DNA from: Kofleriaceae bacterium
Lineage (GTDB): Bacteria; Myxococcota_A; Polyangia; Haliangiales; Haliangiaceae
Length of the DNA: 64,000 nt
NCBI GenBank assembly: GCA_024762925.1
Contig: JANTGM010000002.1
Coordinates: 62,001 to 126,000, forward strand
Direction of reading: 5' to 3'
Shown here: piece after piece, positions 34,533 to 37,294 of the stretch
How positions within the stretch are numbered: the first letter of the stretch is position 1
How the letters are laid out: each line of letters opens with the position of its first letter
Notes under the pieces: model-generated
What the model saw: the letters and a program-made list of their open reading frames with translations, nothing else
Database searches by the model: none
Told to the model about the DNA's origin: nothing
Program-made: the position numbers and the translations under genes

Positions 34533-34589
34533 TGGGCCGAGTTGTGAGTTTCGAGATAGCACTTTCTATGGCATATCTAGGTATCCTCG

Positions 34590-34961
34590 ATGAGGCGGGC
34601 TGTACACATAGCGTTCGCAGCAATCATGTCCTTAACGATCGTGCTAGTGGGGGTGGGTTCCTACCCTCTGGCTTGGGCGGGAAGTGTGGAATGCTGTTGT
34701 GGGGTACATAGCGCAGATGACGACTGTGGTTGTCCCAGCTGCCCAGTCTCCGAGTCGGAGAACGACGAACGGCTGGAAGAGGACTCCTTGTTCTCTTGCA
34801 CCAGTACTGCACTGGTCGTTCGAAGTCCCTTGGTAAAGGTCCTTCTTGCCGCACCTGCGGCATCAATGTACAGGCCGGCACCAGAACGCCGTCTGTGTGA
34901 CCCAGCCAATCAAACGCTGCCAGGATCGGTTGCTCCACTACCGGACGTACCGGATTCTTGA
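34590..34961 (+). CDS. Small exported cysteine-rich protein beside the MbnP/MbnH pair
   Basis: 123 residues. A signal peptide (residues 1-30, ending LAWA) is followed at once by a Cys/His cluster: C35, C36, C37, H40, C46, C48, C51. This CCC-x2-H...CxCxxC arrangement looks metal-binding. An acidic stretch (SENDERLEEDS) and two further cysteines (C70, C102) follow. No family was recognised. It lies 112 bases upstream of mbnP on the same strand, so a role in copper capture or delivery for MbnP is an attractive inference. It is small but has a coherent export signal, which argues that it is real. Confidence 0.6.
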   Translation: MRRAVHIAFAAIMSLTIVLVGVGSYPLAWAGSVECCCGVHSADDDCGCPSCPVSESENDERLEEDSLFSCTSTALVVRSPLVKVLLAAPAASMYRPAPERRLCDPANQTLPGSVAPLPDVPDS

Positions 34962-35073
34962 CCTGCAAACAGGCTAGCGTCAACTATCCCGTTTTCCAGT
35001 TTCCTCCGCAAGACACCACAAACTGCCTCGGAAGAAATCAGCGTTTCCGCAATTCCCGTTAAAGGTTACTCAT

Positions 35074-36045
35074 ATGTCTATTTTCAAGAACCGAATTTTT
35101 CTTACGTCCCTTGGCCTCGCACTGCCTCTCTCTCTCGCCGCTTGTGGTGGCGATGATGATGATGGCACTCCAGCCGCTGATGCTGCCCAGGCGGCCGATG
35201 CAGCTACTGGCGATCCTGATGCGGCAGCTGACGTTTCCGTGAGCCTTGATTTTGCCGCCATGGTTGGACCTGAGGTGTTCGCTTGCTCGGATGGTGGCAA
35301 TGCCAAGGTGTACAACAACATCGGAACGGCAAACTCGGACGTCTCTTTCAAGGACTTCCGCCTCTACGTTTCCAATATTCGTCTCATTGATGATGCAGAC
35401 AACGAAGTGTCGCTAACGCTCAACAACGACGGCGCATTCCAGCTCCAGACCGAGTCTGATGGGCATGTCGCTCTACTGGACTTCGAAGATGGTACTGCGA
35501 ATTGTTCTGAGACTGGAAACGCCAATCTCAACACATCCGTCACCGGCACCGTTCCTCCGGGTAACTACACCGGGTTGGTGTTCGAAGTTGGGGTTCCCTT
35601 CGCTATCAACCACCTTGACGTGGCAACGGCCGATTCACCACTCAACATCTCGGCGCTCTACTGGGCCTGGGCGATTGGCCACAAGTTTGCTCGCATCGAT
35701 TACACCGTCGTCGATGGTGCGGTGTGGAACTTTCACCTTGGAAGCATTGGATGCGCAACGGAGGGCATGACTTCTCCACCAACGGAGGAGTGCTCAAAGC
35801 CAAATCGCCCGACGATCAGGATAGAGAACTTCTCTCACGAGACGGATGTGATCGAGTTGGATGCCGCCGCGATTGTCGCAGACTCAGATCTCACAACGAA
35901 CGCGGGCATGACCCCCGGTTGTATGTCATTTGGCCCGGATGAACCCGATTGCACACCGCTCTTCCCAAATCTGGGACTCGACTACGGAACTGGTGCATGC
36001 ACTAATGATTGTTCTGGGCAGAGCGTTTTCAGCATCGCTGACTAA
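35074..36045 (+). CDS. mbnP: MbnP-family copper-binding lipoprotein (metallo-mystery pair, four-Cys motif)
   Basis: 323 residues with an AAAGG site before the ATG. The type II signal peptide ends at C24 (SLAAC), followed by an Asp/Ala-rich linker. The MbnP core shows SFKDFRLYVSNIRL, PPGNYTGLVFEVGVPF, and LYWAWAIGHKFARID carrying W197 and W199. It ends with C283-x9-C293 and C309-x3-C313, the Cys pairs of the TIGR04052-like family. In the characterised system a Trp of MbnP is converted to kynurenine by the di-heme partner, creating a copper site. The adjacent mbnH gene supports this. W197 or W199 is the likely target by context. Confidence 0.88.
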   Translation: MSIFKNRIFLTSLGLALPLSLAACGGDDDDGTPAADAAQAADAATGDPDAAADVSVSLDFAAMVGPEVFACSDGGNAKVYNNIGTANSDVSFKDFRLYVSNIRLIDDADNEVSLTLNNDGAFQLQTESDGHVALLDFEDGTANCSETGNANLNTSVTGTVPPGNYTGLVFEVGVPFAINHLDVATADSPLNISALYWAWAIGHKFARIDYTVVDGAVWNFHLGSIGCATEGMTSPPTEECSKPNRPTIRIENFSHETDVIELDAAAIVADSDLTTNAGMTPGCMSFGPDEPDCTPLFPNLGLDYGTGACTNDCSGQSVFSIAD

Positions 36046-36070
36046 GACCTGGAAGGTGTAGGATAAGGTC

Positions 36071-37294
36071 ATGGGTACAACTCTCATAGCGTTGGGGCAG
36101 CAGCACAAGCTTCTGCTTCTTGTCGCAGCAACGCTTTCCGTTGCGGCTTGTGGAGATAATGTCGGACCGATGGGTGAAGTCGTCGATGCTTCAATTCCGG
36201 TCGAGTTCGACGCCGAACCCGTCGACCCAAACATTTTTGTTTGGGACATGGTTCCAGAGGGGCTTCCAAAACCCTTTGTTCCTGAAGAGAACCCCATGAC
36301 CTACACCAAGGTGGAGCTTGGTCGCTACCTCTTCTACGACGAGCAACTCTCCGGCAATGGAACGCAGAGCTGTAGCTCCTGCCACAAGCAGGAATTGGCA
36401 TTTGCTGATGGCATCGCCCGGCCAACAGGATCTACAGGGGAGCTTGTGGGGCGCAACTCCCTCGGTCTTATGAACGCGGCCTATCACACTACCTTTACTT
36501 GGATGAATCCCGAGTTCCACGATCTGCGCACACAGATCCAGGTACCACTTTTTGGCGAGTTTCCGATTGAGTTGGGCATCTCCGGCAACGACGTCGAAGT
36601 ACTCACCCGGTTTTCTACAGACCCCGATTACATCGCCAGGTTCGCTGCGGCATTTCCAGAAGACGAAGATCCCATTACCTTCGGCAACATCGCCAAAGCT
36701 CTGGCCTCCTTTGTGCGGTCCATGGTCTCGTTCGATTCCCCTCACGACCGACACACGTACAAAGGGGACACAACAGCCATGTCGGAGTCGGCATTGCGCG
36801 GCCAGGAGCTCTTCTTTGAAGAGCGAATTGATTGCCATCACTGCCATGGCAACTTTCACTTCTCACTGAACCTACGCCACGAAAACACGGTCTTCATCGA
36901 AACCGGGTTTGCCAACAACGGCCTCTACAATGTGAACAACACGGGCAGCTACCCTGCGCCAAGCGAAGGCTTGGTCGCTATCACCAAGCGTGTTCAAGAC
37001 CGAGGCAAGATGCGTACGTCAAGCTTGCGAAACGTCGCCATCACCGGACCCTACATGCACGATGGCAGCATACAGACGCTGGAAGAGGTCATCGACATGT
37101 ATGAGCGTGGTGGCCGATTCGTCGAAAGTGGACCCAACTTTGGAGATGGGCGCGACAATCCATTCAAGAGCGAATTTGTGCACGGCTTCGTCCTAACTGA
37201 AGATGAGCGAGCGGATATGCTCGCCTTCCTAGAGAGTCTCACTGACGAGTCATTTCTCGTCGACCCGAAGTTTTCTAACCCGTTTGAGCAGTAG
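36071..37294 (+). CDS. mbnH: MbnH-family di-heme enzyme (MauG/cytochrome c peroxidase-like) lipoprotein
   Basis: 407 residues. The lipobox is SVAAC (C27). Two heme-binding motifs are seen: C101SSCH105 and C255HHCH259, with the peroxidase-family GPYMHDGSIQTLEEV near 325-340. This places it in the di-heme MauG/CcpA superfamily and, with the adjacent mbnP, in the MbnH group that oxidises a tryptophan of MbnP. The chain would work in the periplasm or on a lipid anchor. It starts 25 bases after mbnP. The usual linker and the order MbnP then MbnH match other known pairs. Confidence 0.88.
   Translation: MGTTLIALGQQHKLLLLVAATLSVAACGDNVGPMGEVVDASIPVEFDAEPVDPNIFVWDMVPEGLPKPFVPEENPMTYTKVELGRYLFYDEQLSGNGTQSCSSCHKQELAFADGIARPTGSTGELVGRNSLGLMNAAYHTTFTWMNPEFHDLRTQIQVPLFGEFPIELGISGNDVEVLTRFSTDPDYIARFAAAFPEDEDPITFGNIAKALASFVRSMVSFDSPHDRHTYKGDTTAMSESALRGQELFFEERIDCHHCHGNFHFSLNLRHENTVFIETGFANNGLYNVNNTGSYPAPSEGLVAITKRVQDRGKMRTSSLRNVAITGPYMHDGSIQTLEEVIDMYERGGRFVESGPNFGDGRDNPFKSEFVHGFVLTEDERADMLAFLESLTDESFLVDPKFSNPFEQ

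Follow-up and report, generated by a model that had tools for sequence, protein, structure and literature searches.

A small exported Cys-rich protein is the probable copper-sensing leader of an mbnPH operon

The 64,000-nucleotide stretch of Kofleriaceae DNA analyzed here (the window) carries a small exported Cys-rich ORF directly upstream of mbnP and mbnH (Table 1). We propose that this ORF probably encodes a copper-sensing nascent-chain leader of the mbnPH operon, controlling the expression of both mbnP and mbnH. The assignment is supported by the existence of a conserved family, the conservation of its ligands, the operon-head position, the fixed spacing from a Cys residue to the end of the protein, the PP tails of the relatives, and the recurrence of leaders before mbnPH. 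With this proposal, the search for a third MbnPH protein gives way to a testable regulatory idea: the leader model predicts that mbnPH expression is timed in a copper-dependent manner and in cis, and it explains why a small Cys-rich neighbor accompanies some but not all mbnPH pairs.

Table 1. Features of the leader-mbnP-mbnH region, numbered from the first nucleotide of the window
Feature	Position	Strand	Basis
Proposed copper-sensing leader of CutF/CruR-like type, small exported ORF rich in Cys	34590-34961	+	Conserved family A1/A2, window-free profile
Signal peptide, residues 1-30, AWA↓G	34590-34679	+	Sequence; helix 2-23 in AlphaFold2 model
Metal-binding-type cluster CCCGVH-x5-CGCPSC, residues 35-51	34692-34742	+	Invariance in 9 homologues
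Distal Cys70, 53 residues before stop	34797-34799	+	Invariant in 19 homologues
Proline-containing C-terminal tail PLPDVPDS	34935-34958	+	Site of PP(P)R, RPPP or PPF in relatives
Leader-mbnP gap, 112 nt; SD AAAGG at 35061-35065	34962-35073	+	No significant hairpin over SD
mbnP, copper-binding lipoprotein with WxW (W197, W199)	35074-36045	+	Pfam, TIGR04052, 7l6g match, alignment
mbnH, MauG-like di-haem enzyme (CSSCH, CHHCH)	36071-37294	+	TIGR04039, 6e1c match, alignment

An earlier note, made from the sequence alone, had recognized a MbnP/MbnH pair with the small ORF in front of it; all three genes lie at the positions it gave, on the + strand, and the call of the pair was correct. MbnP (323 aa, lipobox LAAC24) matched the Pfam MbnP family (3e-38) and scored 260 bits against TIGR04052, above the curated cut-off of 140. 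Both tryptophans of its WxW motif are present and invariant across the aligned family rows; the 7l6g row of this alignment (A4) was left out of account, and the WxW of 7l6g was taken from a separate pairwise match. MbnH (407 aa) reached 484 bits against TIGR04039 (cut-off 363) and contains two CxxCH haem motifs, at residues 101-105 and 255-259. The nearest solved structures were 6e1c for MbnH (E = 2e-106) and 7l6g for MbnP (E = 6e-28). Both proteins have lipobox-like N-termini, and 25 nt separate their genes. MbnPH itself is generally understood to form kynurenine for a copper site, in line with the NCBIfam names. For the copper proteins CorA/MopE, kynurenine for the copper site has been shown, and a part in making it has been proposed for their di-haem partners (PMC3912023). 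Compared with the known MbnP/MbnH (TIGR04052/TIGR04039; 7l6g, 6e1c) and CorA/CorB systems, the present MbnP and MbnH are ordinary members, which leaves the leader as the sole unusual part of the locus.

The small ORF opens with ATG and encodes 123 aa, with a basic/hydrophobic N-terminus and a cleavage-like site followed by E-CCCGVH-SADDD-CGCPSC-P, as the earlier note had read it (CCC-x2-H ... CxCxxC). It matched no Pfam or NCBIfam family, and a single-sequence search of related genomes retrieved homologues with E-values down to 3e-9. When the 1295 ORFs of the window were searched with a profile of eight relatives that did not include the window sequence, the small ORF was recovered (34581-34958) at E = 7e-18, with the runner-up at 0.14. 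A chance ORF was rejected on the basis of this difference, and by its sequence conservation the small ORF is a real gene. Nine sequences of ~28% identity share invariant C35, C36, C37, G38, H40, C46, G47, C48, C51, P52, C70, P118 and P121, and six Cys remained invariant in a wider set of nineteen members, these sequences being mutually related, not independent, and mostly from metagenome-assembled genomes. The AlphaFold2 model (mean pLDDT 61) was confident only for the signal helix; the Cys cluster formed a weak hairpin, and no confident folded domain lay beyond that helix.

Members of the family are short and consist of a signal-like helix, the Cys cluster right after it, and a disordered tail. 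While the linker from the cluster to the distal Cys varies between 26 and 43 residues, the distance from the distal Cys to the stop stays within 51-58 residues (sd 2.0) in 28 members, and the tail sequence is hardly conserved. PP occurs in the last 15 residues of 26 of the 28 family members, compared with 25 of 343 background genes (7%) and 3 of 44 short exported-like background genes, and the Cys-to-PP gap is 47-51 residues in most members. All eight relatives first retrieved with the PP-less window sequence possess a PP tail; that search involved no selection for PP, which later profile searches may favor. A tail variant PDxP(D)S is common to the window (PLPDVPDS) and two leaders elsewhere, L174 and L175 (QPDGPS and RPDAPS).

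By sequence comparison, CutF and CruR (DUF2946), both proven leaders that sense copper and control the gene after them, have this architecture. In CutF, the copper motif and the C-terminal motif lie 45 residues apart, a spacing explained by ~30 residues in the tunnel and ~17 across the membrane (PMC9973294). The distance from CXXC to RAPP in CruR is also 45 residues (47 to PP by residue numbers), and the copper effect was strongly reduced when this spacing was extended by five (PMC9426467). Among the published features of CutF-like proteins (PMC9973294), the small ORF shows a length below 150 aa, an N-terminal signal peptide, a same-strand gene within 1000 nt (112 nt away), and a Cys/His motif ~45-50 residues before the end (C70, 53 residues from the stop); the PP feature is missing from its tail. 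Like CutF of Rhodobacter capsulatus, the leader is small and Sec-exported, combines a Cys metal motif with a proline-rich end ~45 residues on, and is encoded by a first gene with a gap ahead of a copper gene. In contrast to CutF, whose motif is CxxxC and whose mRNA folds into a stem-loop at the cutO SD, the window leader carries CCCGxH, CxCxxC and a further Cys with no such stem-loop predicted, ends without PP, and is followed by mbnP.

Similarly to CruR/DUF2946 of Bordetella pertussis, the leader heads a copper operon, and MbnPH-like genes are already known in CruR-headed operons (PMC9426467). The Cys-to-PP spacing of CruR (47) falls at the edge of that in the leader family (47-51), and both have a long gap, 162 nt in CruR and 112 nt in the window. 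However, the Cys motif differs, RAPP is replaced by PPPR, RPPP or PPF in the relatives and is absent in the window, and Pfam PF11162 (DUF2946/CruR) matched neither the small ORF nor that site in a genome search. DUF2946 membership was therefore rejected, and the DUF2946 matches found in the class look like noise. CzcI/CzcI2 and CopL, compared by description (PMC9973294), are likewise small metal-sensing-type proteins ahead of metal operons; their clusters and downstream genes differ, and CzcI, like the window copy, has no proline motif. A family of putative leaders missed by the DUF2946 model is added, and the ruler-like Cys-to-end spacing, common to CutF and CruR despite the lack of a DUF2946 match here, offers a useful search rule.

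Leaders of this general type recur before mbnPH across bacteria. In named genomes scanned for mbnPH loci with MbnH as the anchor, a CutF/CruR-like ORF was found directly upstream of mbnP at 13 of 54 loci, whereas 6 of the 1021 control windows had one (p = 6e-14). The scan followed simple rules (a small ORF with an export signal, a Cys motif and a PP end) and covered loci with sufficient DNA upstream, the control windows being of equal size. Five of nine leaders tested passed the DUF2946 cut-off and one fell just under it, and the DUF2946-type leaders before mbnPH have Cys-to-PP gaps of 45-53 residues. At 20 class-level mbnPH loci, the simple criteria (signal, Cys, PP) revealed no leader.

The earlier note had linked the small protein to mbnPH and suggested looking for it beside other such pairs; it is present there, directly upstream in six other genomes. 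Five of these belong to the same family (G005, G006, G009, G012 and G025), with the homologue immediately before mbnP, and the A2 profile detected a more divergent homologue directly before true mbnPH in a genome of another family (G252, L176/L206). The family has 12 genomes with mbnP; in six of them (window counted) the leader directly precedes mbnPH, and in six it does not. In G001, a genome of the same genus, the leader's place upstream of mbnP is taken by the gene of a TlpA-like thioredoxin lipoprotein (L064). Leader homologues also precede DUF1775/YcnI genes (L059, L122, L124-L126, L170), Cus-type RND efflux genes (L179 and L181, weaker profile matches), and a divergent MbnP/MbnH-like pair (L171:4645-6467, L172:1508-3336), whose MbnH-like part scored 204-212 bits, under the TIGR04039 cut-off, and whose partner matched barely or not. 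Like those at mbnPH, these other copies look to be first genes. To head unrelated copper clusters and to be missing from half of the family's mbnPH loci is behavior that would be expected of an interchangeable operon head and not of a dedicated MbnPH subunit.

For the same reasons, the third-component role in metal supply or storage raised in the earlier note is less likely than that of a leader. A Cys/His-rich protein of the periplasm, delivering or storing copper for MbnP or keeping it as Cu(I), would fit the signal peptide, the invariant CCCGxH/CxCxxC/C ligands and the location just before mbnPH in seven genomes (window counted), yet we consider it unlikely. Family members stand at the head of operons that contain no MbnPH, half of the family's mbnP-bearing genomes manage without the small gene at this place, and DUF2946 leaders occupy the same place in other phyla. 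In addition, no folded domain is predicted, it is the length of the tail and not its sequence that is constant, and a storage protein would have no evident use for the PP ends of the relatives.

The PP-less tail of the window copy raises the question of decay, that is, of a regulatory family whose arrest tail was lost in this copy together with the control of mbnPH. The lack of PP in the last 15 residues, when all eight close relatives have it, speaks for such a loss. Nevertheless, we regard decay as rather improbable, because the window copy retains all metal ligands and the 53-residue distance from the distal Cys to the stop, the L175 leader of another genome likewise ends in PDAPS with no terminal PP, and CzcI-type relatives of CutF also have no proline motif (PMC9973294). 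Given L175 and the CzcI-type proteins, the loss of PP in the window copy need not be fatal, and its diproline-free tail may still function, although our confidence is lower for this copy. Very unlikely is a CutF/CruR-type leader responding not to copper but to a different metal or to thiol stress (Zn, Co, Ni, silver): some CutF-like proteins are not specific for copper (PMC9973294) and the cluster comprises 7 Cys and 1 His in place of CxxC or CxxxC, but the genes downstream across the family are of copper type (MbnP, DUF1775/YcnI, Cus-like RND).

According to the favored model of a copper-sensing leader, the product would begin its export while still bound to the ribosome, so that the Cys/His cluster meets its metal, which we infer to be copper, outside the membrane. 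At the last codons, the distal Cys, ~50 residues from the peptidyl-transferase center, would be just out of the tunnel and the translocon. Metal binding would then alter a pause over the proline-rich last codons of the ORF; whether mbnP and mbnH are expressed would depend on this putative arrest. MbnP and MbnH would be the working proteins and the leader regulatory. Copper represses the CruR operon and induces that of CutF (PMC9426467; PMC9973294). As CorA/CorB-type pairs are copper-repressed, the CruR-like direction is the better guess, with expression likely on when copper is scarce and off when it is plentiful.

RNA folding of the leader-mbnP region of the window (z = -0.83 for the whole region) predicted no hairpin hiding the SD, which was mostly unpaired, and a CutF-type stem-loop shielding the mbnP SD is therefore not supported. 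No Rfam element was found in the region, and promoter and terminator scans stayed at shuffle level. With 32% C and 17% G, the leader-mbnP gap is rich in C and poor in G, a weakly unusual composition that would suit Rho without standing out. In the predicted folds of four other loci (L116, L117, L120 and L126), the proline codons CCTCC(G) pair with a downstream GGAGG SD, an arrangement not seen in the window. CCT accounts for 5% of Pro codons and is rare in the genomes of leader relatives; as a lead from these folds, the arrest-type CCTCCG motif might also serve as an anti-SD at the four loci.

More tentatively, and with less confidence than in the assignment of the window leader, we suggest that the putative copper-sensing nascent chains form a family specific to a Myxococcota lineage and distinct from DUF2946, in which a multi-thiolate cluster (CCCGxH-CxCxxC) and a distal Cys ~50 residues from the end might control kynurenine-forming MbnPH as well as several other copper modules. 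The window member would pause on a diproline-free PDxPDS, and in some relatives the CCTCCG PP codons would pair with the SD.

Some leader homologues head a recurrent cluster (L059:4000-5847, L122, L124, L125, L126, L170 and L175) in which DUF1775/YcnI is accompanied by a lipoprotein of 70-80 aa, a ~145 aa 'DWNIHGHAGGSTQ' lipoprotein with no Pfam match, and a monohaem cytochrome c. Often the cluster also encodes a His-rich protein of ~260 aa, and as a whole it looks like an undescribed copper module.
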